Positions 41,646-55,929 of a stretch of DNA of 64,000 nt are shown here, piece after piece. Under the pieces are notes generated by a model that saw only the letters and a program-made list of their open reading frames with translations, did not search any database and was not told where the DNA came from. Position 1 is the first letter of the stretch. Each line of letters begins with the position of its first letter. The translations under genes and the position numbers were made by a program. Location: positions 1-64,000 of the forward strand of contig NZ_JACIDV010000003.1 in the NCBI RefSeq assembly GCF_014196515.1. Direction: 5' to 3'. The stretch comes from Rhizobium skierniewicense. Its GTDB lineage: Bacteria > Pseudomonadota > Alphaproteobacteria > Rhizobiales > Rhizobiaceae.

Positions 41646-43193
41646 ATGCCTGAATGCCGGAACCTCATTTTCATCCTCGGTGACCAGCTCTCCACGGCGA
41701 TTTCGTCGTTGAGGGACGCGCAGCCAGAACATGACGTCATCTTGATTTGCGAGGTCGCGGAGGAGACGACCTATGTGCGTCATCACCGCAAAAAGATCAT
41801 CTTCGTTTTGTCCGCCATGCGCCATTTCTGTACGGAGCTTTCTGAGCGAGGTTTTAATGTCCGCTACATCAAGCTGGATGATGCCGATAACACCGGGTCT
41901 TTCACGAAAGAACTGAAAAGGGCAGTGGAGGCGCTGCGCCCGCAAAACATCGTTGTGACGGAGCCCGGTGAGTGGCGCGTGAGGCAAGCGATGGACGGTT
42001 GGGACAGGGAGACAGGTCTCTCGGTGGACATCCGGCCAGACACCCGGTTTCTCTGCTCCCACGAAGACTTCCGCCTTTGGGCCGAGGGGCGCCGTCAATT
42101 GACGATGGAGTTCTTCTATCGCGAGATGCGCCGCAAGACGGGCCTTTTGATGGAGGGTGATGCGCCGACGTCGGGCCGCTGGAATTTCGATAGCGAAAAC
42201 CGCGCGCCCGCAAAACCGGATCTGTTTCGTCCCCGTCATCCCACCTTCTCGCCGGATGAAACCACGCGCGAGGTCATGGGTCTCGTCGATTGCCGGTTTG
42301 CCGATCACATGGGTTCATCGGAGGGTTTCTCGCTGGCCGTGACGCGGTCCGAGGCTGAGAAGACAGCAGATACCTTCATTGCAGATTTCCTGCCGAAATT
42401 CGGAGAAACCCAGGATGCCATGGTGAAAGGCGATCCCTATCTCAATCATTCGCTCCTGTCCTTCTACATCAACATCGGTCTTCTTGATCCCCTTGCCGTG
42501 TGTCAGGCCGCAGAACGCGCCTACCTGCAGGGTCACGCCCCCATCAATGCCGTGGAAGGCTTTATTCGTCAGATCATCGGCTGGCGGGAATATATTCGCG
42601 GCGTCTACTGGATGTTCATGCCGGATTACGCACACCGCAATTTCTTTGGCGCAACGCGTCCGCTGCCGGATTTCTTCTGGACCGGAAAGACGGATATGGC
42701 CTGTCTCTCGACCGTTATCGGCGAAACCATCGACAACGCCTATGCCCATCACATTCAACGCCTCATGATCACCGGCAACTTCGCCATGCTGGCCGGGCTC
42801 GATCCCCATGCTGTGCATGAGTGGTATCTCGAGGTCTACGCGGACGCCTATGAGTGGGTAGAATTGCCCAACGTCATCGGCATGAGCCAGTTTGCCGATG
42901 GCGGGTTGCTGGGCTCCAAGCCTTACGCGGCCAGCGGCGCCTATATTTCCCGAATGTCGGATTATTGCGAAGGCTGTCGCTATGATGTGAACCGCAAGAC
43001 CGGTGAGGGCGCGTGTCCGTTCAACGCACTCTACTGGGATTTTCTGGACAGAAACGCCGAGAAACTGTCATCCAATCGCAGGCTGGCGCAGCCCTATGCA
43101 AATTGGCGCCGGATGAGCGATGAGAAACGCAATGATTACACGCAAAGCGCTCGCGTTTTTTTGAAGAAGCTCGATGACGGTACCTTGGTCTAA
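41646..43193 (+). CDS. phrB: iron-sulfur bacterial cryptochrome / (6-4) photolyase (PhrB family)
   Basis: Light-driven repair of (6-4) pyrimidine photoproducts with FAD. The 515-residue chain follows Agrobacterium PhrB as I recall it nearly end to end: N-terminal LIFILGDQLS antenna domain, EGFIRQIIGWREYIRG, AYAHHIQRLMITGNFAMLAG and WVELPNVIGMSQFADGG for FAD. All four cluster ligands of the FeS-BCP class are present (C353, C441, C444 and C457, in YCEGCRYD and ACPFN). It is divergent from the shikimate transporter operon, apparently by chance. Confidence 0.93.
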   Translation: MPECRNLIFILGDQLSTAISSLRDAQPEHDVILICEVAEETTYVRHHRKKIIFVLSAMRHFCTELSERGFNVRYIKLDDADNTGSFTKELKRAVEALRPQNIVVTEPGEWRVRQAMDGWDRETGLSVDIRPDTRFLCSHEDFRLWAEGRRQLTMEFFYREMRRKTGLLMEGDAPTSGRWNFDSENRAPAKPDLFRPRHPTFSPDETTREVMGLVDCRFADHMGSSEGFSLAVTRSEAEKTADTFIADFLPKFGETQDAMVKGDPYLNHSLLSFYINIGLLDPLAVCQAAERAYLQGHAPINAVEGFIRQIIGWREYIRGVYWMFMPDYAHRNFFGATRPLPDFFWTGKTDMACLSTVIGETIDNAYAHHIQRLMITGNFAMLAGLDPHAVHEWYLEVYADAYEWVELPNVIGMSQFADGGLLGSKPYAASGAYISRMSDYCEGCRYDVNRKTGEGACPFNALYWDFLDRNAEKLSSNRRLAQPYANWRRMSDEKRNDYTQSARVFLKKLDDGTLV

Positions 43194-43291
43194 AGCCAAC
43201 CCGTGCAAATCGGCCACAGCGCCTCGGATAATTTCCTCCTCCTCCGCAACCATAGATCTTTGATCTGGAACTGAGACTGCAAGCTTTATAA

Positions 43292-43312
43292 ACATGACAA
43301 ATTATATCATGT
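43292..43312. promoter_or_regulatory. iron-responsive operator (RirA-type IRO) upstream of the ECF sigma gene
   Basis: TGA (43295-43297), nine bases and TCA (43307-43309) fit the TGA-N9-TCA rhizobial IRO, within a longer inverted repeat ACATGA ... TCATGT. It lies 70-90 bases before the sigma-factor ATG in AT-rich sequence. It is therefore the probable iron-repression site of the signalling pair. Confidence 0.6.
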
Positions 43313-43380
43313 TAAATCGATGTCGCCTCACACGGCCAGGGTGGGGATCGACGAAAAAAGCTGTTGGATGTTGTCGGTCG

Positions 43381-43890
43381 ATGAGTACAGCGTTGTTACA
43401 CCTTTTGAAAACGGACGAGAGCAATCGTCTTATGCGGTTTTTCCGCCACCGCCTTCGGGATCGTGAAGATGCCGCCGATGCCATGCAGGAAACGGCTTTG
43501 CGCGTTTTGCAGGTCTCTCAGACAACATCGATAGAAAATCCGCAGGCCTATCTCTTTCAGATCGCGAAATCGGTTGCGCGACTGACCATCATCAAACAGT
43601 CCCGCGAACGTCCGCTGCTGGTTTCGTTGGAAGACGAGCTCGGTGTGGCCTGCGACAGGCCGGATCAGGAACAGATCGTCAACGGGCGCCAGCATCTGGT
43701 AGCCATGACGCGCGAAATAGAGGCTTTGCCGAAGCGTTGCCAGCAGGTTTTTGTGCTCAGCCGCATTAACGGCCTGCCCAATGGCGAGATCGCGACGCGG
43801 CTCGGAATCTCTCGCAACATGGTTGAGAAGCACATCATAAAAGCCCTGCTCCACTGCCGTCAGGCACGGGCAAAAATAAACAGCCGGTAG
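43381..43890 (+). CDS. ECF sigma factor, FecI-like
   Basis: A 169-residue extracytoplasmic-function sigma factor. Region 2 is LMRFFRHRLRDREDAADAMQ with ENPQAYLFQIAKSVA; region 4 is LPKRCQQVFVLSRINGLPNG followed by the recognition helix IATRLGISRNMVEKHIIKAL. The ATG at 43381 fits FecI length; an earlier in-frame start at 43294 begins inside the iron box. The gene for a FecR-like partner follows after 64 bases, then a receptor with a signalling domain, so it should transcribe the receptor gene. Confidence 0.9.
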   Translation: MSTALLHLLKTDESNRLMRFFRHRLRDREDAADAMQETALRVLQVSQTTSIENPQAYLFQIAKSVARLTIIKQSRERPLLVSLEDELGVACDRPDQEQIVNGRQHLVAMTREIEALPKRCQQVFVLSRINGLPNGEIATRLGISRNMVEKHIIKALLHCRQARAKINSR

Positions 43891-43954
43891 AACGTCAGGC
43901 GCTCGCATGTTTTTCACTCAATATATAAGGATGCTAAACGTAACCTGATTGAGA

Positions 43955-44917
43955 ATGGCGATCTCTATGCATGACCATTACAGCGACCCGAACGATGAGG
44001 GTCTTGCTGAACAGGCAGCACTTTGGGTGGCGCGGATGCAGTCGGCCGATGCATCGCCATCAGATCGCGAGGCGTTCGGGGTGTGGCTGGCGTCAGATCC
44101 ATCCCATAGAGATGCCTATGAGGACATGGCGGCCCTGTGGGGCGATATGCGTGCGGTTACTCTTGCCTCGGCATCAGATCAAAAGGCACGCTCAGCCAAG
44201 AAAGTGCTGACCGCGCTCTGTCTCCTTTGTCTTCTCGGGGCAGCGGTCCTGCTGTCTCGCCAAACCGGGCTTATCGACCGACTTCAGGCCGATCACTATA
44301 CCTCGGTTGGTGAAACCCGCATGATCATGCTGGAGGATGGCACCAGGGTCAGCCTCAACTCCGATACGGCGATCGAAACGCGCTATTCCGACCGCGAACG
44401 GCGCATCGTTCTGTTGCGGGGTGAAGCATTTTTCGACGTGGCCAAAAATCCGCAACGCCCCTTCATTGTCGATAACGATGGTTTGACGGCGCAGGCGGTG
44501 GGAACCCATTATGCGGTGCGCGCGGGAAATGGCTCTTTGCCGCAGGAGGTGCAGGTTGAAGAAGGCGAAGTCGAGGTTGAAACGATTTCCGGCCGTGCAA
44601 GACTGAGGGCCGGGGAGGCGGTAACGCTGGACAGCGATGGCGCCACCGTCCGTTCGCGGCAGGATATCAGCAACAACACGGCCTGGCGTGAGGGCAAACT
44701 TGTTTTTTCCGGCCAGTCGCTGCGACAGGTTCTTCAGGTCTTGGCGCAATATCGCCATGGCCGGATTGTCGTCCTTGACGACACGGCGGCGCGCTTGAGC
44801 GTCTCGGGCATTTTCGATCTTCATGACACCAATCAAGCGCTGCGTATCCTGGAAAGCAGTCTGCCCGTGACGGTGACGAAGCTGTCCGACATGATGGTCC
44901 TTGTCCGCTCCCGATAA
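43955..44917 (+). CDS. FecR-family anti-sigma / transmembrane signal protein
   Basis: About 320 residues: an N-terminal cytoplasmic DUF4880 domain (EQAALWVARMQS, PSHRDAYEDMAALW), one membrane segment (LTALCLLCLLGAAVLLS, about 88-105), a periplasmic FecR domain (TRMIMLEDGTRVSLNSDTAI, then GEAFFDVAKN) and a C-terminal STN-like DUF4974 (ITKLSD region after LRILESSLPVTV). ATGs at 43955 and 43967 are both plausible. It holds the sigma factor and passes on the receptor signal. Confidence 0.9.
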   Translation: MAISMHDHYSDPNDEGLAEQAALWVARMQSADASPSDREAFGVWLASDPSHRDAYEDMAALWGDMRAVTLASASDQKARSAKKVLTALCLLCLLGAAVLLSRQTGLIDRLQADHYTSVGETRMIMLEDGTRVSLNSDTAIETRYSDRERRIVLLRGEAFFDVAKNPQRPFIVDNDGLTAQAVGTHYAVRAGNGSLPQEVQVEEGEVEVETISGRARLRAGEAVTLDSDGATVRSRQDISNNTAWREGKLVFSGQSLRQVLQVLAQYRHGRIVVLDDTAARLSVSGIFDLHDTNQALRILESSLPVTVTKLSDMMVLVRSR

Positions 44918-45026
44918 TTTTCTCTTGGAGCACGTCAGGAGGTCGGTGTCCTTTTCACTCTAGGTCAACAGAATGCATTGCGTGCTTGCGCAGTGCGTTG
45001 CTGTTCAGGCGTAAAGGGGCACTAGG

Positions 45027-47414
45027 ATGATTTTAGCGAAGCGGGTACATACAAAACTGTGGCTGGCGACAACGGCGATGATGGGGCTATCGCTGGTAAC
45101 CGTTGTGGGGGCCGCGCGTGCGCAGGCGCAGACCACCGCTGCCACGCCTGCTTCCGCCACGTTGTCGGTGCCTGCGGGTCCCCTGGAAAGCGCTATCCTC
45201 ACGCTGGGTCGTCAAGCCAATTTGCGCATGCTCTACCCGTCGGCGATCACAAGAGGAAAAACCACGGCTGGTGTTCGTGGACCTCTGAGTGTCTCGGCGG
45301 CAGTCACACAGCTTCTGGCAGGCTCAGGCCTCAATTTCACCATTACAGGCTCCAACACGGTTCGAATTTTCGATCCTTCGACGGCAACGCCACAGGCGGC
45401 CGTCAGCAATGATGGCTCGACGGTTCTAGAAACAATCGTCGTTGAAGGCTCTGGCACGGGAGGCGTGGCCGGCATCATCGAAACGAATGGCTATCTCGCA
45501 AAATCCGGCCGCTCGGCAACGAAAACAGACACTCCGGTGGCGGAGACCGCACAGTCGGTATCGGTGGTGAGCCGGAAACAACTGGATGACCGGCAGCCGC
45601 AGAATCTGAAAGAAGCGATCGATTACACCCCGGGCGCCAGAAGCGGTGCCTATGGCACGGAGCCACGCTTCGACACGTTCAAGCTTCGCGGGATAGACCT
45701 GACATATTCCGGTGTCTTCCGCGATGGTCTGCGCCAGATCAGCAGTCCAAATGGGCTTTTCCGGTTGGAGCCTTACGGCTTGGAAGCGCTGACCATTCTA
45801 CGTGGGCCGGCGGCCTCTGTCTACGGTGCCAGCAGTTCCGGCGGCATTGTCGACATGATTTCAAAGCGCCCGACGGAAGAACAGATCCGAGAAGTAGAGC
45901 TTCAATATGGCTCCTATGGGCGCGTTCAAGGCGCCTTCGATCTGTCCGGCCCCGTTACGGATGACGGCTCGGTCCTGTATCGTTTGACAGGTGTTGCGCG
46001 TGATGGTCGCAACGAGATCAAAGCGATCAAGGATGACCGCGTGATGATCGCTCCGGCGGTAACTTGGAAGCCGGACGAAGGCACCAAGTTCACGATCCTC
46101 GGTGAATATATGGATTCGACCACGGGCGGAACCTGGGGCTACGTCAACACCTTCGACAGCAATAATGTGTCCACGGGTGCGCAGCCCATCTACAGTGGCG
46201 ACAGCCGTTTCAACGACTTTGAGCAAAAGCAGTGGCGGATCGGCTATGAGCTTGAACATGAGATCAACGATACTCTGACGCTGCATCACAAGCTGCGCTA
46301 CTCCGATCTCTCGACCCGTCAGGAATACGTCGACAGCAACTTTCCAGGCATTGTCTATGAAGACAACAGAGGGTTGGCGACCGACACATATCTTGAGGCG
46401 GATTTCCAGACAGGAGCTGCCCAGCATAAACTGATCGGCGGCATTGATTACAGCTTCATGGAATATGAATCGCGGCAAGGCTCCGGGCCAAACCTGTTCA
46501 CCCCAACCTTCACCTACATCCCTGCCGTCAACTACGTGGAGACGCAGAAGCAGAACTCGATTGGTCTTTACGTTCAGGATCAAATCGAACTTGATGCCTG
46601 GCGTATCGGACTTGGTCTGAGGCATGACTGGCACGATAGCGACTACACGAGTGCCGGCGCAGGGGGATCGCGAAAGGACAGCGTGACCACAGGACGGGCG
46701 TCGATCGGTTATGTGACGTCATGGAACGTCATGCCCTATATCAGTTATGGCACCTCATACCTCGCCAACACAGGCGTGGTCTTGACCGGTGCGACTAACC
46801 AGGCCAATCCGACCCGCGGCAAGCAGTACGAGATTGGCGTCAAATATGAGATACCGGACCAGAATATTCTTCTCTCTGCGGCCTATTTTGACATCAGGCA
46901 AAAGGATTCCTCTCTTTTTGATACCAACACGATGTCCCTGAGGCAACTTGACCTTCGTTCACGTGGCGTTGAGCTCGAAGTGACAGCATCCCTCGACAAC
47001 GGTTTGAGCTTTACCGGTGGCTATTCCTACAACGACGCCGAAATCACTAGGCAGAGCCCTGCAACGGTTGGCAATCAGCTCAATTCCTCACCCTATCACA
47101 TGTTTTCGCTCTGGGCAGATTACGAAGTCCAGAGTGGAGCACTCGAAGGTCTTGGCCTGGGCGCTGGCGTGCGATATGTCGGCTCGAGTTTCGGGGATGA
47201 TGCCCATACAAAAGTCATAACCAATGAGGCCCGGACATTCGTTGACGCGGCGTTGCGTTATGATCTCGGCAAGCTCAATGACGCGATGGAAGGCGTGAAG
47301 CTGCAAGTTAATGCCAGCAACCTTCTCGATGAGGTCAAACAGGTTTGCACGACCGGTTACTGCCTCTACGATGAGGGCAGAAAATTTGTTGCCAGCGTCA
47401 AGTACAGCTTCTGA
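45027..47414 (+). CDS. TonB-dependent siderophore receptor with N-terminal signalling domain
   Basis: A 795-residue outer-membrane receptor. Signal peptide about 1-35 (ends ARAQA), then STN signalling domain (LSVPAGPLESAILTLGRQAN, then LRMLYPSAI, about 45-110), plug with VVSRKQLDDRQPQNLKEAID and TILRGPAASVYGASSSGG, and a 22-strand barrel ending in the export-signal phenylalanine (VKYSF). FhuE/FoxA-type length and motifs fit a hydroxamate ligand. The STN domain matches the FecI/FecR pair upstream. Its stop overlaps the MFS start (TGATG). Confidence 0.93.
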   Translation: MILAKRVHTKLWLATTAMMGLSLVTVVGAARAQAQTTAATPASATLSVPAGPLESAILTLGRQANLRMLYPSAITRGKTTAGVRGPLSVSAAVTQLLAGSGLNFTITGSNTVRIFDPSTATPQAAVSNDGSTVLETIVVEGSGTGGVAGIIETNGYLAKSGRSATKTDTPVAETAQSVSVVSRKQLDDRQPQNLKEAIDYTPGARSGAYGTEPRFDTFKLRGIDLTYSGVFRDGLRQISSPNGLFRLEPYGLEALTILRGPAASVYGASSSGGIVDMISKRPTEEQIREVELQYGSYGRVQGAFDLSGPVTDDGSVLYRLTGVARDGRNEIKAIKDDRVMIAPAVTWKPDEGTKFTILGEYMDSTTGGTWGYVNTFDSNNVSTGAQPIYSGDSRFNDFEQKQWRIGYELEHEINDTLTLHHKLRYSDLSTRQEYVDSNFPGIVYEDNRGLATDTYLEADFQTGAAQHKLIGGIDYSFMEYESRQGSGPNLFTPTFTYIPAVNYVETQKQNSIGLYVQDQIELDAWRIGLGLRHDWHDSDYTSAGAGGSRKDSVTTGRASIGYVTSWNVMPYISYGTSYLANTGVVLTGATNQANPTRGKQYEIGVKYEIPDQNILLSAAYFDIRQKDSSLFDTNTMSLRQLDLRSRGVELEVTASLDNGLSFTGGYSYNDAEITRQSPATVGNQLNSSPYHMFSLWADYEVQSGALEGLGLGAGVRYVGSSFGDDAHTKVITNEARTFVDAALRYDLGKLNDAMEGVKLQVNASNLLDEVKQVCTTGYCLYDEGRKFVASVKYSF

Positions 47415-48652
47415 TGATACGTCGCACGCCCATTGATACAAGGCCGTCCCCTTTTGCCGTCTTCGCGGCGGTCAGCGGTCTTTATGTCGGACAAAGCGTC
47501 ATCGGCGGGCTGACATTTCTCGGTCTTCCGGCGGTTTTGAGAACCGCCGGGCTTCCGCTGGATCAGATCGGTCTTCTGTATCTGATCGTTTTGCCGTGGG
47601 CATTGAAGTTTCTCTGGGCACCCCTCATCGAGCGCTACCGGCTGCCGCGTGTGGGGAAAAACAGATCACGGCTCATCGTCGGCGCGGGGGTGGCGATCTG
47701 CGCATGCGGTCTGGTCGTCCTGGCATTTACCGGGCCATCCCCTGTCAGCACGGCCATCGCCATTCTGTTCGTTATTGCGGTGGTGACTGCGACCGTCGAT
47801 ATCGCCTGCGATGGATACGCTGTCGAAACACTGGCGGTCAAGCACCACGGATGGGCAAATGCCGCACAGGTCGGTGGCGCCTATCTTGGCTCTGCCATAG
47901 GAGCAGGCCTGTTCCTTGTTCTTGTCGATTGGTACGGATGGAAAAGCGCGACACTGGTCATGGCAGGCCTCGTGCTTGTGCTTGCCGTGCCGTTTGTCTT
48001 CGGACCCGCCGCGAAAGCCAAGGTCGAGACCCGCGACCAGAGACCATCCATCCTGCGCGCGCTGAAGCGTCCCCACATACAAATCGGTCTCATCATCGCC
48101 GCGATCTATGTTGCGGCTCAAAAATGGGGGCTGGCGATGCTGGGGCCCTTCCTGATCGATTACGGGTTCGATCTGGCAACATTGGGACTTTTCAACGGCG
48201 TCGGAAGCATGGTCGTCGGCTTCGGCGGCGCGCTTTTGGGCGGGTTTTTGGTGCGTCTTTATGGTTCGTCGCGGGTCCTTGTCTTATCGATCGTGGTCCA
48301 GGCGATTTTGCTCTGCGCCTTCGCTGCCTTCAGCCTTCACCGCGACATTGCCGACTGGGTCGTCATGACGATTGCGATCACCAGTTCATCCGGTGTCATG
48401 TCGATTGGGTTTGTCGCCCTTTATGCAAGTTTCATGGGCTGGTGCGATCCAAAACAGGCGGGTGTGGATTTCACCCTATTCCAATGTATGGATGGCATTG
48501 TCAGCATGGCCGGAGGCGTCGGTGCAGGCGCAATTGCTGAGCGTTTCGGCTACCACACATCTTTCCTGGTTGCTGCCGGCATATCTGCACTCGCTGCTCC
48601 CGCCATCCTGCTGCTTTCAAGGCGGAGTGCGGCTCTGGCAGCTGCATCCTGA
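47414..48652 (+). CDS. MFS siderophore permease, RhtX/FptX family
   Basis: A 412-residue inner-membrane transporter with about 12 segments. It has LLYLIVLPWALKFLWAPLIE near the start and VDFTLFQCMDGIVSMAGGVG near the end, the hallmark of the RhtX/FptX (AmpG-like) group that imports whole ferri-siderophores without an ABC system. Overlap with the receptor stop indicates coupled expression. No siderophore ABC importer lies nearby, so this is presumably the only local route into the cytoplasm. Confidence 0.88.
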   Translation: MIRRTPIDTRPSPFAVFAAVSGLYVGQSVIGGLTFLGLPAVLRTAGLPLDQIGLLYLIVLPWALKFLWAPLIERYRLPRVGKNRSRLIVGAGVAICACGLVVLAFTGPSPVSTAIAILFVIAVVTATVDIACDGYAVETLAVKHHGWANAAQVGGAYLGSAIGAGLFLVLVDWYGWKSATLVMAGLVLVLAVPFVFGPAAKAKVETRDQRPSILRALKRPHIQIGLIIAAIYVAAQKWGLAMLGPFLIDYGFDLATLGLFNGVGSMVVGFGGALLGGFLVRLYGSSRVLVLSIVVQAILLCAFAAFSLHRDIADWVVMTIAITSSSGVMSIGFVALYASFMGWCDPKQAGVDFTLFQCMDGIVSMAGGVGAGAIAERFGYHTSFLVAAGISALAAPAILLLSRRSAALAAAS

Positions 48653-48802
48653 TTAACTTATAAATTGTATTTTTCGATATCTGTCGACCACTTAGAAATG
48701 GTGGCGATAAAATCAAATAGCTAGAGACGGCCATTGTCACCATCATCGCGGAACACGACCGCGGATGGGCGAGTTAATCTGCTCAAGATCACTGATATAA
48801 CA

Positions 48803-48821
48803 GAATTTTTGGTAAAAATTC
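48803..48821. repeat. perfect AT-rich hairpin/inverted repeat
   Basis: GAATTTTT (48803-48810), GGT, AAAAATTC (48814-48821). It is 150 bases past the permease stop. It could end that transcript or be a protein-binding site; there is no evidence to choose. Confidence 0.4.
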
Positions 48822-48905
48822 GGGGCCAAATTATGCCCTTACCATCCTATTTTTCATTCCGTACCTATCTATTTTTTACCCCCAAAAAATTAGCAAAATA
48901 ATACT

Positions 48906-48920
48906 TGATTTATTTTGTCA
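48906..48920. promoter_or_regulatory. iron-responsive operator (RirA-type IRO) of the siderophore operon
   Basis: TGA, nine bases (TTTATTTTG) and TCA fit TGA-N9-TCA exactly. It is followed by TATTTATAAA, a likely -10 region, 36 bases before the hydroxylase ATG. A repressor bound under iron-replete conditions would cover the promoter. Confidence 0.55.
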
Positions 48921-48955
48921 TATTTATAAAAACGAGCGCAACGTCGGAGGCGCCA

Positions 48956-50278
48956 ATGGAAAATACAATTTATGATTTCACCGGTGTCGGGCTTGGCCCG
49001 TTCAATCTCGGTCTGGCTTGCCTTGCCAGCCCGGTCCCTGAATTACGGTCTGTCTTCCTCGACCGGAACCATGGATTCAACTGGCATCCGGGAATGCTCC
49101 TGGAGAATGCGACCTTGCAGACCCCGTTCATGGGCGATCTCGTCACCCTGGCGGATCCGACCAGCCCCTTCACTTTCCTTAATTATGCGAAGGAGCAAGG
49201 CAAGATTTACGCGTTCTACACGCGAGAAGACTTCTTCCTTCTGCGCAGCGAGTACAATCTTTACTGCCAGTGGGCGGCTGCCAAACTGGACAATCTGAAA
49301 TTCGGTCACACGGTGAAGGATGTCAGATACGACAGGGGAGCCAGCCTCTACAAGCTGACAGTCGCGGATCGTCTCGGCGGGATCAAAAAGATAGAAACCC
49401 GTCGATTGGTCGTGGGAACGGGAACATCGCCATCGGTACCCGCCTGCTGCAAAAAGCTGGCGCAGCATATGACCCATTCGTCACAATATCTGGCGAACAA
49501 GAAGCAGCTTCAAGCCCGCAAATCGATTGTGATCGTCGGCAGTGGGCAGAGTGCAGCCGAAATTTATCACGACCTCTTATCTGATATCGATAACCACGAT
49601 TACAGCATCGACTGGGTCACGCGGTCGCAACGGTTCTTTCCTCTGGACTTGACGAAGCTCAATCTGGAAATGACATCGCCTGATTACGCCCATTATTTCC
49701 ATAATCTGCCGGACGACACCCGGGACCGGGTTCTGCAGGAGCAGTCAGCCCTTTTCAAGGGCATCAATGCCAGTCTGCTGAAGGACATTTACGACCTTCT
49801 CTATCGCAAAAGCCTGAAGGGACCTGTCGCGACCCATCTCATTCCCAACAGTGAGCTTGTGGATGTGCGCCACTCGCCCGGACGGCAGGAATTTTCGCTG
49901 GAGTTTCGGCAGCGGGAACAGGACATCACATTCACGCGACAGGCAGATGCCGTCATTCTGGCCACTGGCTACGACTACAAGGAGCCGGAGTTCCTGAGCG
50001 GTATCGCCGAGCGCTTGAAGCGTGACGGCAAAGGCAGGCTTGATGTTGGCGCCAATTATGCGGTGGACCATGCGGGAGGTGAAGTCTTCGTTCAAAACCT
50101 CGATATCCACACGCACGGATTTGTCGCACCCGACCTTGGCATGGCATGCTTGCGAAACGCCACGATTTTGCGTGAAATTGCAGGATACGAGGTCTACGCA
50201 ATCGAACAGGAAACCGCGTTCCAGACCTTCGATGTCCGCGGTCTGAGCGAAGTCACGTCAGCCCGCGTGGTGGCATGA
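48956..50278 (+). CDS. siderophore amine N-hydroxylase (IucD/AlcA/RhbE family)
   Basis: Flavin monooxygenase of 440 residues that hydroxylates the terminal amine of lysine, ornithine or a diamine. FAD motif GVGLGPFNLGLA at the N-terminus, NADPH motif IVGSGQSAAEIYHDL in the middle and the family ATGYDY (VILATGYDYKEP) near the end. The 18-residue longer reading from 48905 begins in the promoter. As the synthetase is AlcC/DesD-like, the substrate is more likely a free diamine (putrescine, cadaverine) than lysine; sequence alone does not decide. Confidence 0.88.
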   Translation: MENTIYDFTGVGLGPFNLGLACLASPVPELRSVFLDRNHGFNWHPGMLLENATLQTPFMGDLVTLADPTSPFTFLNYAKEQGKIYAFYTREDFFLLRSEYNLYCQWAAAKLDNLKFGHTVKDVRYDRGASLYKLTVADRLGGIKKIETRRLVVGTGTSPSVPACCKKLAQHMTHSSQYLANKKQLQARKSIVIVGSGQSAAEIYHDLLSDIDNHDYSIDWVTRSQRFFPLDLTKLNLEMTSPDYAHYFHNLPDDTRDRVLQEQSALFKGINASLLKDIYDLLYRKSLKGPVATHLIPNSELVDVRHSPGRQEFSLEFRQREQDITFTRQADAVILATGYDYKEPEFLSGIAERLKRDGKGRLDVGANYAVDHAGGEVFVQNLDIHTHGFVAPDLGMACLRNATILREIAGYEVYAIEQETAFQTFDVRGLSEVTSARVVA

Positions 50279-51465
50279 TGCTGAGAACAGCTCTGCTGGC
50301 GATGACCGCCATCGCCGTTGTCAGTGACACGATGCTTCTGCCTTACTATCCGCAGCTGTTTGTCGCGCGGTTCGACATTTCATCACCGTTTACCGTCGGC
50401 GCCTATCTGGCGTCGATATCGCTCGCGGTCATGCTGGCGTTTCCGGCATGGGTTGCCATTGCCAGGCGACATGACACGATTGGTGTGCTGATCTGGACAC
50501 AACTGGCTGCTGCCGGGTTCAGCCTCGCCTGCTACATGGCAACAGACATTGCCAGCTTCTGGGTCTCATCCCTCGTGATGGTGTGCTTCAAGGCGAGCTA
50601 TCTGCTGATGTATCCCTACGTCATTGCCATGCAGCCCGTGGAAAAGCATGCGGCGACAATCGGTGCGCTGGCCGTTATCGTCCATTTCGGCGGCATTGTC
50701 GGTGCCGTATCCGGTGGCCATGTCGTGGGTTCCTGGGGCTATGCGTTGCCCTACGTCATCATGGGTCTGGGCGATATCATACAGGCCGGTATTTGTGCCA
50801 TCCTGCTCAAGACAGCTTCCGTGGCAAGGGCCCGGCAATCCAGCGCCGAGGACACAAAAAGCATCGTTGCCGTGATGCCGGAAGACAAGAAGAGTTTTAC
50901 GTCCCTCCTGATCGTGATGTTCTTCTTCTACTTCGGTTTTTACATGTCGATGCCGTTCATGACCGTGTGGTGGCAGTCGGTTGCTATCGGCGCCTCACCG
51001 GATCTGGCCGGCATCGTCTATGCCATACCGGGTTTCGTAGCCCTTGCCATATTGGCGCATGGGTTTTGGCGCGGTGGTGGCAGCCAGGTCTGGCGCCGAA
51101 ACGAAATCGGCCTCGTCCTCACGGGCCTAGGTCTGGCGGTCCAAGCTGTTCCGGATCAGGCCTGCATCATCATAGGCCGCATCATTTACGGAATCGGGCT
51201 CTATCGCGTCACCATCGGTCTTGATGCGCTGTTTTTCGAACGGGCCCAAAAGGCTCACTATGCATCAGGCTTCAGCCTTCTCAACATTGCCCGCAACAGC
51301 GGCGTGATGCTCGCTGCCCTGGTGAGCGGCGTGCTGAGCCAGCGTTTCGGTGCAGGGCTCTCTTTTGCCGTTGCAGCCATCGTCGTGCTTGCCACGCTGT
51401 TTCTGTACCGCGTGACCTTGAGACCGAACCTCGGGTCAGCCGACCCCGGCCCACAACTTGCCTGA
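50275..51465 (+). CDS. MFS transporter, probable siderophore exporter
   Basis: A 396-residue inner-membrane protein with about 12 segments and a central cytoplasmic loop near residues 180-200. It overlaps the hydroxylase stop (ATGA) and precedes the acyltransferase, so it is in the biosynthetic operon, as AlcS is in the alcaligin locus. It is distinct from the RhtX/FptX-like importer at 47.4 kb. Export is inferred from position. Confidence 0.82.
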   Translation: MMLRTALLAMTAIAVVSDTMLLPYYPQLFVARFDISSPFTVGAYLASISLAVMLAFPAWVAIARRHDTIGVLIWTQLAAAGFSLACYMATDIASFWVSSLVMVCFKASYLLMYPYVIAMQPVEKHAATIGALAVIVHFGGIVGAVSGGHVVGSWGYALPYVIMGLGDIIQAGICAILLKTASVARARQSSAEDTKSIVAVMPEDKKSFTSLLIVMFFFYFGFYMSMPFMTVWWQSVAIGASPDLAGIVYAIPGFVALAILAHGFWRGGGSQVWRRNEIGLVLTGLGLAVQAVPDQACIIIGRIIYGIGLYRVTIGLDALFFERAQKAHYASGFSLLNIARNSGVMLAALVSGVLSQRFGAGLSFAVAAIVVLATLFLYRVTLRPNLGSADPGPQLA

Positions 51466-51478
51466 CAAGGGGATGATC

Positions 51479-52084
51479 ATGCTCAACACCAAACTCTCAA
51501 CCGCAACAGAACGTCCGATAGTCTTTGCGCAAGACCATGCAAATGTCGGGGAACTGTCTCTATGCCCGCTTGAACCGCACGCCGACAGCGCAAAGCTGCA
51601 TGACTGGTTCACACGAGACTATGCGCGTTTCTGGAACATGGGACATTATTCGCAAAACGAGATTGCGACCTTTTATGCACAGCTCAATGCCAGTGGTCAT
51701 GCGGCAAGCTACATGGGCTTTTTCGAGGGCCATCCCGCCTTCATCGTCGAATCCTACGATCCCAAACATGATCAGGTGGGCAAGCATTACGAGGTAGAGG
51801 CGGGAGATTGGGGCATGCATTTTCTCGTCGCCCCCCCGCGCCGGACAATTTCCGGCTTTACGCTGGCCATCATCCGCACGGTCTTGAGCTTCCACTTCGA
51901 CAATCCGCTCGTCAAACGCCTCGTGGTCGAGCCGGATGTTCGAAACGAAAAGGTTCATGAACTCAACCGCAAGGTCGGCTTCGTCAGCGCCCGTACCATT
52001 GAGCTGGAAGAAAAGACGGCGCTTTTGTCTTTCGTCACCCGAGACGCGTTTTATAAAACTCTTGAACAGGACATAAACGAATGA
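51479..52084 (+). CDS. siderophore N-acyltransferase (GNAT; IucB/AlcB/RhbD family)
   Basis: A 201-residue acyl-CoA transferase that acylates the hydroxylamine. It has CPLEPHADSAKLHDWF, HPAFIVESYDP and the family GDWGMHFLVAPP, with the CoA-binding VVEPDVRNEKVHELNRKVGF. AAGGGG supports the ATG at 51479. Expected donors are succinyl-CoA (alcaligin, desferrioxamine pathways) or acetyl-CoA. It is coupled to the synthetase by ATGA. Confidence 0.88.
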   Translation: MLNTKLSTATERPIVFAQDHANVGELSLCPLEPHADSAKLHDWFTRDYARFWNMGHYSQNEIATFYAQLNASGHAASYMGFFEGHPAFIVESYDPKHDQVGKHYEVEAGDWGMHFLVAPPRRTISGFTLAIIRTVLSFHFDNPLVKRLVVEPDVRNEKVHELNRKVGFVSARTIELEEKTALLSFVTRDAFYKTLEQDINE

Positions 52085-53901
52085 ATATCTCCGCGTTCCC
52101 AACACCCTCCTTTTCGCCTGAAAAGGCATCCGCACATCTTGGCCCGCTGGTTTGGGAGGATGTCAACCGACACCTCGTGCACAAGGCGCTGGCAGAGTTT
52201 TCCCATGAACTGCTTCTCGCTCCGAAACGTCTTTCAAGCGAAGGCGATTGGGGACTTTATGAGGTGTGCTCGGAAGAGCAGAGTGCGACCGTCTATCGCT
52301 TCAAGGCAAGACGATTGGCGCTGGACCATTGGTCCATAGACCCTGAAACAATCGAAAAGACTGTCGCGGGCCATGACGCGCCGCTGGATGCACTTTCGCT
52401 CATCCTCGAATTTGCGCCTGTATTGGGAATCAAGGACGCCATGCTGCCCACCTATCTGGAAGAGGTGTCCACGACACTTTATGGCGCGTCATACAAACGC
52501 GAGGAGCGCCATATCTCATCCAAGCAGCTGGCTCTGGCTGATTATCAGACGATCGAGGCGGGCATGACGGAGGGGCATCCGACCTTCATAGCCAATAATG
52601 GGCGCATCGGTTTCGACGCCATCGACTACCGACTTTACACACCTGAAGCCGCGCACCCCGTCCAGATTGTCTGGCTGGCGGTCAGCAAGGAGCGGGCGAC
52701 CTTCACCTCGATCACGGAACTCGACTATCACAGCCTGATTGCAGAGGAACTTGATGAAGCCAGTCTGGATGGCTTCGAGACACGCTTGACACGGCTTGGC
52801 TTGAACCCGGATGATTACTGGTTGATGCCGGCGCATCCCTGGCAATGGTTCAACAAGCTGGCGATAACCTTTGCCGCAGACGTAGCGCGCCGCTACATCG
52901 TGTGCCTTGGCTATGGAAACGACAGCTACACGGCGCAGCAATCGATCAGAACGTTTTTCAACGCGACCGACAATCGCAAGCACTATGTCAAAACCGGGAT
53001 TTCCGTTCTGAATATGGGCTTCATGCGCGGCCTGTCACCCAAATATATGCTGGCGACACCCGCTATCAACGAATGGCTGGATGACCTCATATCGACCGAC
53101 GCGTATCTGCGCCCGAACGGCTTCAGTATTTTGCGCGAAGTCGCCGCCATTGGCTACCGTTATCCCTACTACGATCAGGGACTGAAGCTCGATTCGCCCT
53201 ATAAGAAAATGCTTTCGGCGCTCTGGCGCGAAAGTCCTCTGCCGCGCCTGCGCGCAAACGAGCGGATCATGACGATGGCAGCGCTGCTGCATAAGGATAA
53301 GGATGGCGTATCCCTGGTGGCGGAATTGATTGCCGCCTCAAAGCTGGATGCGCAAGACTGGATAGCGGCCTACCTGAAAGCCTATCTGGCGCCCCTTATC
53401 CATTGCTTCTATCGCTATGATCTGGCTTTTATGCCCCACGGCGAAAATCTCATTCTCGTGCTGGAAGACAATGTTCCGGTTCGCGCCATCATGAAGGATA
53501 TCGGAGAGGAAATCGGTATTCTGAACGGCTCGATCGAGGTGCCAGAAGAGATATCGCGGATATCCTATACGCTGGACGAAAAGATGAAGCCGAACTGCAT
53601 CTTCACCGATGTGTTCGATTGCTTCTTCCGGTACCTCTCTGCAACGCTGCATGAAACGGACACCCTGCATGAGGACCGCTTCTGGAGCCTGGTCGCGGAA
53701 TGCTTCCGCACCTATCAGGCCGAACATCCTGAGCATGCGGACAAATACCAGCGCTACGACTTTTTCGCAGAGCGCTTTGTGCGCAATTGCCTGAACAGGC
53801 TGCAACTCAACAACAACCAGCAGATGCTGGATTTGCTGAATCCCGAGGACAGCCTTCAATATATCGGCGAACTGGAAAACCCGCTGGCCCGCTTCCGCTA
53901 G
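52081..53901 (+). CDS. NIS siderophore synthetase, IucA/IucC superfamily (AlcC/DesD/PubC-like)
   Basis: ATP-dependent condensing enzyme of 606 residues. Motifs: VNRHLVHKALAEFSHE at the N-terminus, MPAHPWQWFNKL, AQQSIRTFFNATDN with HYVKTGISVLNMGFMRGLSP, LLHKDKDGVSLV, and FMPHGENLILVLEDN. The KTGISVLNMGFMRG region and overall layout agree with type C synthetases (AlcC, DesD, PubC as I recall) that join N-hydroxy-N-succinyl diamines into oligomers or rings, not with the citrate-using type A. Only one synthetase is in the locus, which also suits a self-condensing substrate. Confidence 0.9.
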   Translation: MNISAFPTPSFSPEKASAHLGPLVWEDVNRHLVHKALAEFSHELLLAPKRLSSEGDWGLYEVCSEEQSATVYRFKARRLALDHWSIDPETIEKTVAGHDAPLDALSLILEFAPVLGIKDAMLPTYLEEVSTTLYGASYKREERHISSKQLALADYQTIEAGMTEGHPTFIANNGRIGFDAIDYRLYTPEAAHPVQIVWLAVSKERATFTSITELDYHSLIAEELDEASLDGFETRLTRLGLNPDDYWLMPAHPWQWFNKLAITFAADVARRYIVCLGYGNDSYTAQQSIRTFFNATDNRKHYVKTGISVLNMGFMRGLSPKYMLATPAINEWLDDLISTDAYLRPNGFSILREVAAIGYRYPYYDQGLKLDSPYKKMLSALWRESPLPRLRANERIMTMAALLHKDKDGVSLVAELIAASKLDAQDWIAAYLKAYLAPLIHCFYRYDLAFMPHGENLILVLEDNVPVRAIMKDIGEEIGILNGSIEVPEEISRISYTLDEKMKPNCIFTDVFDCFFRYLSATLHETDTLHEDRFWSLVAECFRTYQAEHPEHADKYQRYDFFAERFVRNCLNRLQLNNNQQMLDLLNPEDSLQYIGELENPLARFR

Positions 53902-54521
53902 GCGTCATCAGAGTCGCTGGTAAAATGCGCGACGAGGGCTGCCGTGTTTTTTAGCCCGGCAGTCTTCATCAGTCTTGCGCGATGGGACTCGATGGTTCGC
54001 GGTGATAGACCAAGTTCGGCGGCAATGGCCGCGTTGGTTTTGCCTTGCGAAACCAGCGTCACGATTTGTCTCTGCCGGTCCGTCAGGCTCAGGCGTTGCT
54101 GAACAACGGGGCGGGTAATGGGTTGAAAACAATAAAGCGCCTGTGCAAAAGGGTCTGTCGCGTGGCGTGTCCTGCCATGGACCTGGCACCAGAACCGCCT
54201 GCCATCACTCGTCGTCATGATGCGTTCATCGTAATAGACCTTCCCGCCGGGAAGATGCGCTTTCCACATGCGTCCCGTCTGCACAAAGTCGGCATGTTTG
54301 GGGTAGAGACGGGCAAAGCTCTGGTCGACCAGCTCTGCGCGTTCATAGCCGAAAAGTCCGGCGAATTCCTCGTTGCAATCCCGGATGATCCGATGCGTGG
54401 CATACACCATCGGCACCGGTATCTCGCTCAAAAGAACACGCGTTTCGTCCTGATCGTCTTTCAACCTTTGCCCTCTTCCATGCCGTATAAATACGGCTAA
54501 CCTGCCCCGATAATCAAGCAT
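53898..54521 (-). CDS. PAS-LuxR transcriptional regulator
   Basis: About 207 residues: an N-terminal PAS domain (IPVPMVYATHRIIRDCNEEF, AGLFGYERAEL, MWKAHLPGGKVYYDERIM, FWCQVHGRTR) and a C-terminal LuxR helix-turn-helix (LTDRQRQIVTLVSQGKTNAA, IAAELGLSPRTIESHRARLM). A longer reading to 55217 would run over the CoA-transferase gene, so I take the ATG at 54521, though no ribosome site is clear. It is divergent from the CoA-transferase genes (likely target) and overlaps the synthetase stop by 3 bases, convergently. Confidence 0.83.
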   Translation of the reverse strand: MLDYRGRLAVFIRHGRGQRLKDDQDETRVLLSEIPVPMVYATHRIIRDCNEEFAGLFGYERAELVDQSFARLYPKHADFVQTGRMWKAHLPGGKVYYDERIMTTSDGRRFWCQVHGRTRHATDPFAQALYCFQPITRPVVQQRLSLTDRQRQIVTLVSQGKTNAAIAAELGLSPRTIESHRARLMKTAGLKNTAALVAHFTSDSDDA

Positions 54522-54569
54522 AGCTTTTAGGTCTCTGCCGCGCGGTTTTGCGGTGGAAAAGGAGGAGAG

Positions 54570-55283
54570 ATGCGCAAGGTAAAAACGACGGCCGTGGACG
54601 CGCTTGCGGGTGCATTGCACGACGGTATGACGATCATGTCGGGTGGCTTTGGTCTCTGCGGCATTCCAAACAGCCTCATCGAGGCCATTCGCCTGTCCGG
54701 TGTCAAAGACCTCACTGTCATTTCCAACAATGCTGGCGTCGATGGGTTTGGCCTCGGCATCCTTTTGGAAACAAAACAGATCCGGAGGATGATTTCGTCC
54801 TATGTGGGTGAAAACAAGCTGTTTGCCGAGCAGTTTCTGTCTGGTGCTCTGGAGCTTGAGTTTAACCCCCAAGGGACTTTGGCGGAGCGCATCCGTGCGG
54901 GTGGCGCAGGCATCCCCGCCTTTTACACCAAGACAGGTGTTGGTACACTTATCGCGGAGGGAAAAGAGGTTCGTCGGTTTGGCGACAGCGATTATGTCAT
55001 GGAAACCGGACTGGTTGCGGATCTGACGATTGTCCATGCCCATATCGGCGACACTGAAGGCAACCTCGTCTACCGAAAAACCGCGCGCAACTTCAACCCG
55101 GTCATGGCAACGGCTGCGAAACTGACAGTTGCCGAAGTCGAGCACCTCGTGACCGCGGGAGAGATCGATCCCGACCATGTCCATACGCCGGGCATTTTCG
55201 TTCAGCACGTGGTCCATGTTCCCGACCCTGAGAAACGGATCGAGCAGCGCACCGTTCGCAAGACGCAGCAGGAGAACGTCTAA
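54570..55283 (+). CDS. scoA: succinyl-CoA:3-ketoacid CoA-transferase subunit A
   Basis: A 237-residue alpha subunit that activates acetoacetate with succinyl-CoA. [53 protein letters not shown] and [17 protein letters not shown] match ScoA rather than PcaI, which reads KAARNFGPIMAMA as I recall. GGAGGAGAG precedes the ATG. Subunit B follows at once. Confidence 0.9.
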
Positions 55284-55284
55284 G

Positions 55285-55929
55285 ATGGCCTGGACCCGGG
55301 AACAAATGGCGGCCCGCGCCGCGACAGAACTACAGGATGGCTTCTACGTCAATCTGGGCATCGGCATCCCGACCCTCGTTGCGAATTACATTCCGCACGG
55401 CATAGAAGTGACGCTACAAAGTGAAAACGGAATGCTGGGCATGGGGCCTTTTCCATTCGAGGGAGAGGAAGACGCCGACCTGATCAATGCCGGAAAGCAG
55501 ACGATCACGGAGCTTGCCAAAACCAGCTATTTTTCATCGGCCGACAGTTTTGCGATGGTTCGCGGCGGCCATATTGATCTTTCGATCCTTGGCGCCATGC
55601 AGGTTTCCGAGAGCGGCGATCTCGCCAACTGGATGATCCCCGGCAAAATGGTCAAGGGTATGGGCGGCGCAATGGATCTGGTGGCGGGCGTCAAGCGCGT
55701 CGTCGTGGTCATGGAACACGAGGCGAAGGGCGAGCCGAAATTCCTGAGGGAATGCAGTCTTCCGCTCACGGGCAGGCGCGTCACCGATCTTCTCATCACC
55801 GACCTGGGTGTCTTTACCCTTGCGCGTCAAGGACATCCCACGGCGACGTTGATCGAGTTGGCCGACGGCGTGTCTGTCGATGAGATACGCTCGAAAACGG
55901 ATGCGGCGTTCGACATTGCCCTGGCTTGA
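55285..55929 (+). CDS. scoB: succinyl-CoA:3-ketoacid CoA-transferase subunit B
   Basis: A 214-residue beta subunit with the active-site glutamate in [12 protein letters not shown], the entry [19 protein letters not shown] and the [16 protein letters not shown] loop. The ATG at 55285 is 1 base after the subunit A stop; a longer reading from 55177 lies inside subunit A. Together they form the heterotetramer for acetoacetate use or ketone-body turnover. Confidence 0.92.

Follow-up and report, generated by a model that had tools for sequence, protein, structure and literature searches.

Which class of siderophore would be made by the gene cluster at 43381-53901 of the window, and how are the making and the uptake of the carrier joined in it? 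The window is the whole stretch of DNA analysed here, 64,000 nucleotides of Rhizobium skierniewicense (contig NZ_JACIDV010000003.1, positions 1 to 64,000), which forms the start of contig C3 in a 4.8 Mb genome; judged by its named relatives, its genus is Agrobacterium. Eight genes, all intact and in the same orientation, follow one another in the order sigma factor, FecR, receptor with an STN domain, major facilitator superfamily (MFS) protein, N-hydroxylase, second MFS protein, GNAT acyltransferase and synthetase. It is likely that they make up a two-module hydroxamate siderophore locus, with a biosynthesis module and an uptake module that would both be gated by RirA, surface signalling boosting uptake alone. 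The locus is real, is built of known parts and probably works as an AlcC/DesD-type siderophore locus.

In the biosynthesis module (48956-53901), the hydroxylase would oxidise a diamine, the GNAT enzyme would add succinate to the N-hydroxydiamine and the single synthetase would join two or three of these units, probably to form a ring, with the second MFS protein exporting the siderophore. In the uptake module (43381-48652), the receptor would take in the iron-loaded product and the first MFS permease would move the ferri-complex across the inner membrane; the STN domain of the receptor would signal via FecR to the sigma factor, which would raise transcription of receptor and permease. When iron is plentiful, RirA would repress both sigma-FecR and the biosynthesis operon. 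We infer the catalytic steps, transport directions, regulator binding, product and expression in this reading. Its parts are as follows.

43291..43313, no strand assigned: palindrome with a candidate RirA-type iron-responsive operator (IRO) box, TGA-N9-TCA, at 43295-43309, 5' of the sigma gene
43381..43890, forward strand: extracytoplasmic function (ECF) sigma factor of the FecI kind, start corrected
43949..44917, forward strand: FecR-like anti-sigma/signal protein, listed start codon TTG
44934..44966, forward strand: candidate promoter of the receptor gene, TCAGGA-N17-CTCT, presumably sigma-dependent
45027..47414, forward strand: TonB-dependent receptor with STN domain; ferrioxamine B receptor is the best NCBIfam model, below its cut-off
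47414..48652, forward strand: MFS permease, partner of the receptor, predicted inner-membrane importer, RhtX/FptX-like, distinct subfamily
48906..48920, no strand assigned: candidate RirA-type IRO box, TGA-N9-TCA, 5' of the hydroxylase gene
48956..50278, forward strand: diamine N-hydroxylase, Lys/Orn monooxygenase family, start corrected
50275..51465, forward strand: second MFS protein, predicted exporter, transport direction presumed
51458..52084, forward strand: GNAT acyltransferase, predicted N-hydroxydiamine succinyltransferase, listed start codon TTG
52081..53901, forward strand: NIS synthetase (siderophore synthetase independent of nonribosomal peptide synthetases), AlcC/DesD/DfoC type by scores and tree

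The original prediction had placed eight genes of these broad families here, which holds, although two starts had been set too early: relatives align from 43381 and 48956, and the earlier sigma ATG at 43294 falls within the conserved palindrome. The starts were therefore moved to the ATG codons at 43381 (169 aa) and 48956 (440 aa). Domain searches returned ECF sigma, FecR, STN plus plug and barrel for the receptor, MFS, lysine/ornithine monooxygenase, MFS, Acetyltransf_8 and, for the synthetase, IucA_IucC plus a FhuF-like domain.

The synthetase and its type

Against solved chains, the synthetase scored 705 bits with AlcC, 695 with DfoC and 690 with DesD, compared with 254 for IucC and 31 for IucA. 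A 51-row tree placed it in one group (support 100) with sequences from Phyllobacterium, Mesorhizobium, Hansschlegelia, Methylopila and Chelatococcus, outside the AlcE-linked group (98), while RhbF, RhbC and three Agrobacterium rhb-type rows were split off from it (99% in the Shimodaira-Hasegawa-like approximate likelihood ratio test), the trees being of a quick kind without bootstrap, with a very long RhbC branch and long L094 and L015 rows. Bordetella AlcC was compared by score alone, AlcE-bearing loci standing in for it in the tree. The Sinorhizobium meliloti genes used were those which we take, from matches and gene order, to be RhbC, RhbE, RhbF and RhtX. The window synthetase is also the sole IucA_IucC gene of the genome. 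Judged by its sequence, it belongs with AlcC/DfoC/DesD and not with RhbC/RhbF. Both the synthetase type that had been predicted and the difference from the rhb locus are thus borne out, and the supported branch is the very comparison that the original prediction had named as able to overturn it.

Several relatives carry a synthetase of this type in other surroundings. A Mesorhizobium locus (L025, 5924-14761) holds a synthetase of the clade (58%), matched likewise in L024 and L026-L029, and no hydroxylase or acyltransferase match was seen in the fetched flanks. In L025 it is surrounded by genes for a WelO5-like oxygenase, a GMC oxidoreductase and a pair of class-III aminotransferases, and the product is possibly a different, non-hydroxamate compound. 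Two synthetases of this type per locus occur in L040, L069, L077 and L085 (Bacteroidota) and in L033 (Shewanella).

Hydroxylase, acyltransferase and the diamine

The hydroxylase and the GNAT acyltransferase, both assigned by homology, lie in one operon with the synthetase. The hydroxylase scored 529 with the desferrioxamine lysine-6-monooxygenase chain 5o8p, 494 with 6xbb and 437 with a putrescine N-hydroxylase; 5o8p and 6xbb are presumably DfoA and DesB, and the query genes called DfoJ and AlcE below are likewise those which we take to bear these names. In its tree, the window enzyme stood outside the AlcE-linked group (100). The acyltransferase scored best with the N-terminal part of DfoC. 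Of 80 named loci, 61 have a homologue of the second MFS protein between the hydroxylase and synthetase genes.

Among the 80 named relatives, a DfoJ-like decarboxylase (at least 400 bits) is present in 26 and an AlcE-like gene in 32, both together in none; 20, some of them cut short by contig ends, have neither at 100 bits, including four named Agrobacterium loci. In the window, no DfoJ-like decarboxylase, AlcE-like hydroxylase or FhuF-type reductase gene was found. A dedicated decarboxylase elsewhere in the genome was rejected as well, with one match to PF00282 below the cut-off and none to PF01276. PF02784 gave three matches over the cut-off, which we take to be LysA-like, ornithine decarboxylase (ODC)-like and carboxynorspermidine-decarboxylase-like proteins. 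The ODC-like protein, for which all NCBIfam matches fell below their cut-offs, is the only amine source found in the genome. Decarboxylase-linked and AlcE-linked hydroxylases can be told apart at 11 sites, of which the window has the decarboxylase-linked residue at 8, the AlcE-linked one at 1 and neither at 2, a comparison confounded by descent.

The receptor-permease cassette

The first MFS protein shares 31% identity with the product of the S. meliloti gene taken for RhtX, and its best NCBIfam model, TIGR02718 (RhtX/FptX), reaches 186.8 bits where the cut-off is 356. Closer RhtX relatives are found in the rhb-like loci of two other agrobacteria (L184 and L185), and orthology with RhtX was rejected; the RhtX route of the original prediction gives way to a separate MFS subfamily, which may possibly work like RhtX/FptX proteins. 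The receptor scored 714 with the ferrioxamine B receptor model (cut-off 904).

Among 394 Rhizobiaceae genomes, a permease match (E up to 1e-30) occurs in 75 and a relative at 379 bits or more in 44, of which 6 have the synthetase and 38 lack it at that threshold. All 38 loci of the latter kind were fetched, with 9-12 kb each. A receptor gene stands directly 5' of the permease on the same strand in every one (in two frames in L161), and no hydroxylase or synthetase match was seen in these stretches. Sigma and FecR genes are present in seven of them, two being Agrobacterium (L146 and L147, from G021 and G028), and the window receptor is nearest (89%) to that of receiver-only G028. The synthetase (E up to 1e-150) is found in 8 of the 394 genomes, and the permease accompanies it in 6 of 8 as against 38 of 386 others (Fisher p 3e-5 in this family draw, kinship ignored). 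The two synthetase genomes that lack the permease are G376 (Phyllobacterium-like, synthetase 64%) and G305 (Mesorhizobium-like, 58%). Two other genera (G206, G194) have the same receptor-permease pair beside a hydroxylase and a fused acyltransferase-synthetase gene, the G194 permease match containing one internal stop. Producer operons of two builds adjoin the cassette, split in Agrobacterium and fused in these genera, where the fused genes lie at L114 9350-11770 and L115 6590-9013.

When loci were labelled on the trees of permease and receptor, a position beside a synthetase required 4 changes, compared with a mean of 6.6-6.7 in shuffles, and the presence of sigma-FecR required 2; such counts do not separate gain from loss. 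As many relatives carry the uptake cassette alone, making and taking up the carrier are suggested to be separable modules. The biosynthesis genes are of a known kind; the point of interest is this modularity, with a receiver cassette far commoner than the producer operon. More tentatively, with somewhat less than an even chance of being right, the Rhizobiaceae would share a hydroxamate receiver cassette (FoxA-like receptor plus its own MFS importer), linked in one branch to a single-promoter sigma-FecR pair; differently built producer operons would have joined it more than once, producers and receiver-only relatives coexisting in Agrobacterium would mean that this siderophore is sensed and taken up more commonly than it is made, and signalling would control uptake, not synthesis.

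Predicted signalling and iron control

The ECF sigma factor, FecR and STN receptor adjoin one another and complete the FecI/FecR surface-signalling gene set. The general ECF model TIGR02937 (56.5 bits, cut-off 42.9) is the one sigma cut-off passed; the specific FecI and FecR models were matched, each below its own cut-off. With that qualification, the FecIR signalling parts that had been predicted are all present. An STN match was obtained in the receptors of all seven receiver-only sigma-FecR loci (25.5 bits in L153, below the cut-off of 28.4) and in none of seven tested receptors without sigma-FecR (L015, L114, L148, L149, L151, L156 and L171). STN thus tracks sigma-FecR among the tested receptors, and the signalling parts go together.

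RirA is encoded in the genome (294 bits, cut-off 193), and its motif is given as TGA-N9-TCA in PMC8822346. This motif occurs 27 times in the window, so that a single match means little. An IRO box lies near the sigma start in all 11 sigma-FecR loci (the window, L012-L014 and seven receiver-only loci) and 5' of the hydroxylase in all 5 Agrobacterium loci. Of 32 loci that lack sigma, L161 not being counted, 23 have a box near the receptor start and nine, including L114 and L115, have none; 12% of random 300-base stretches contain one. No TGA-N9-TCA box was found in the window receptor promoter. The RirA gene together with boxes at promoters, as putative sites, places the locus in a candidate RirA regulon.

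All 11 sigma-FecR loci have a TCAGGA-N16-17-CTCT block 5' of the receptor, and none was found 5' of the hydroxylase in the five Agrobacterium loci. The window holds a single copy of the shorter form of the motif, where 0.13 would be expected, and 13 of 100 shuffles hold at least one; the longer form has one match in the whole genome, its reversed control none. The window was part of the alignment from which the motif was derived, so that finding it there tests nothing; its uniqueness and absence 5' of the hydroxylase are the tests. The best reading of these motifs is that RirA would gate both sigma-FecR and biosynthesis, and that sigma-based surface signalling would boost uptake alone. What is new here are the candidate RirA-type boxes before the sigma and hydroxylase genes and the genome-unique, sigma-promoter-like motif before the receptor only.

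Distribution in Agrobacterium

The named relatives of the window are A. rubi (94%), strain MEJ076 (92%), A. bohemicum (89%) and A. larrymoorei (81%), followed by Phyllobacterium (63%). Identical gene order in three named Agrobacterium genomes (L012-L014) shows that the locus is no chance array. A synthetase match of some kind was obtained in 15 of 39 Agrobacterium genomes: the window type (at least 81%) in five, own genome included, a different synthetase pair whose better member is 32-34% identical in seven, and a single distant match in three. L184 and L185 belong to two of those seven and are rhb-like loci with a close RhtX relative; G028 has an rhb-like locus plus the receiver-only cassette in the same genome. 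A megablast of plasmids with the locus gave no match, and the closest synthetase on plasmids reached only about 55%. Photolyase-related and CoA-transferase genes flank the locus in its own genome and A. rubi but not in the other three carriers. As flanks differ, a single empty insertion site is not definable, and a common insertion site, shared by just two of five carriers, was rejected.

Alternative explanations

Several observations weigh against the two-module reading. The hydroxylase tree places the Agrobacterium enzymes beside Pantoea (support 87) and apart from other alphaproteobacteria; this disagrees with the synthetase tree, so the histories of the two genes may differ. No dedicated decarboxylase was found in locus or genome, and no FhuF-type reductase in the locus. 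Kinship is uncorrected in the association of synthetase and permease, Agrobacterium supplying four of the six genomes that have both. The Phyllobacterium relative has a binding protein and a FecCD permease of the ATP-binding cassette (ABC) type where the MFS gene would be. A. larrymoorei has the biosynthesis genes and a permease but no sigma-FecR match, and its receptor belongs to another group, lies on the opposite strand and lacks STN even at a lax E-value limit. Finally, FhuB is encoded in the genome itself (679 bits, cut-off 554), together with a binding protein and a FhuC-like gene that scores 398 bits and so misses its cut-off of 433, and import may therefore go by an ABC route; the ABC-independent import of the original prediction is not borne out. 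As the cassette is mostly found without a synthetase, its ligand may be foreign. An unlikely alternative is as follows: the biosynthesis operon works, the receptor-permease cassette serves foreign ferrioxamine-type siderophores independently, and the own product enters through another receptor and Fhu ABC. The 38 of 44 permease genomes without synthetase, the FhuB gene elsewhere in the genome, the ferrioxamine B receptor as best model and the closeness of the receptor to that of a receiver-only relative all agree with it, as does the naming of Sinorhizobium FoxA as a xenosiderophore receptor in PMC12815270. However, cassette and operon adjoin in four Agrobacterium loci, and the same pair stands beside the fused acyltransferase-synthetase in two other genera.

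The two-module reading commits to neither putrescine nor cadaverine. That the product is putrescine-based (putrebactin class), not cadaverine-based (bisucaberin/desferrioxamine E class), or a mixture set by amine supply, has a chance only slightly short of even. The ODC-like gene as sole amine source found speaks for it; according to PMC10385936, S. meliloti Odc2 decarboxylates both lysine and ornithine, is ten-fold more active on ornithine and has homologues in A. tumefaciens, and PMC8891985 describes PubABC/AvbBCD products as following amine precursor supply. The discriminating hydroxylase sites, eight decarboxylase-linked to one, and the resemblance of the receptor to ferrioxamine receptors point the other way. 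A citrate-type synthetase, as in the aerobactin/rhizobactin pathway, is very improbable: although the window enzyme shares the IucA_IucC superfamily and other agrobacteria have rhb-like loci, AlcC, DfoC and DesD score far higher, and the genome holds just one such gene, which is split with support from RhbF and its Agrobacterium relatives. The rhizobactin type was rejected on this single gene and the tree split from RhbC/RhbF.

Comparison with known systems

Like dfo, des, bib, pub and avb loci, the window has a hydroxylase, an acyltransferase and one AlcC/DesD-type synthetase, with an MFS gene in many relatives' operons as well; acyltransferase and synthetase are separate genes, as in des and pub. 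Unlike the cadaverine-type dfo and avb loci it lacks a dedicated group II lysine decarboxylase gene, and unlike desferrioxamine, bisucaberin and putrebactin loci it has an attached signalling and uptake cassette. The Burkholderiales alcaligin locus (alcABC) has the same core order, and eight such loci (L034, L035, L038, L047, L049, L051, L075 and L076) carry sigma-FecR-receptor directly 5' of the hydroxylase. The alcaligin type was nevertheless rejected: AlcE and the FhuF-type reductase, present in many Burkholderiales loci, have no match in the window, and the window hydroxylase and synthetase lie outside the AlcE-linked clades. The S. meliloti rhb/rhtX locus (rhizobactin 1021) is likewise a Rhizobiaceae siderophore locus, and its MFS permease falls into the same broad family as the window protein, with just 31% identity; rhb differs in having two synthetases of another clade.

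The original prediction had held the combination to be undescribed in rhizobia. No description of this Agrobacterium locus was found in the literature searched, subscription journals being mostly outside the search; on the other hand, the hydroxylase-MFS-GNAT-synthetase core operon is common among relatives, and sigma-FecR-receptor also precedes it in the eight betaproteobacterial loci above. The nearest rhizobial precedent is the Sinorhizobium fredii RirA-FecI-FecR-fprA-asb-fat petrobactin circuit (PMC8822346). In it, RirA acts together with an RseP-FecR-FecI cascade on the genes for a receptor, petrobactin biosynthesis and ABC import, a cluster described there as a naturally 'synthetic' foreign one. 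In both rhizobia a RirA box and sigma-FecR govern a siderophore receptor, as a prediction for the window, but the window would make another siderophore class and has an MFS gene in place of ABC import genes. Also, the S. fredii sigma factor drives biosynthesis too, whereas the window motif stands 5' of the receptor only.

Agrobacteria of the rubi/larrymoorei kind are predicted to have a siderophore system that differs from those named for rhizobia in the literature searched (vicibactin, rhizobactin, petrobactin). Producers beside receiver-only relatives in one genus make siderophore piracy testable, and likewise how siderophore genes, once acquired, are wired to RirA and to a sigma factor of FecI type. 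The MFS subfamily tied to FoxA-like receptors is marked as a set of candidate ferri-hydroxamate importers.

Flanking genes

Upstream, at 41646-43190 of the window, lies a PF04244 deoxyribodipyrimidine photolyase-related protein, present in 19 of 39 genus genomes. Downstream, at 53898-55929, a PAS-LuxR regulator faces two genes that resemble coenzyme A (CoA)-transferase subunits, a name read off the sequence. These flanking genes look unrelated to the siderophore locus. The listed PAS-LuxR frame overlaps the next gene, and its true start is probably downstream.

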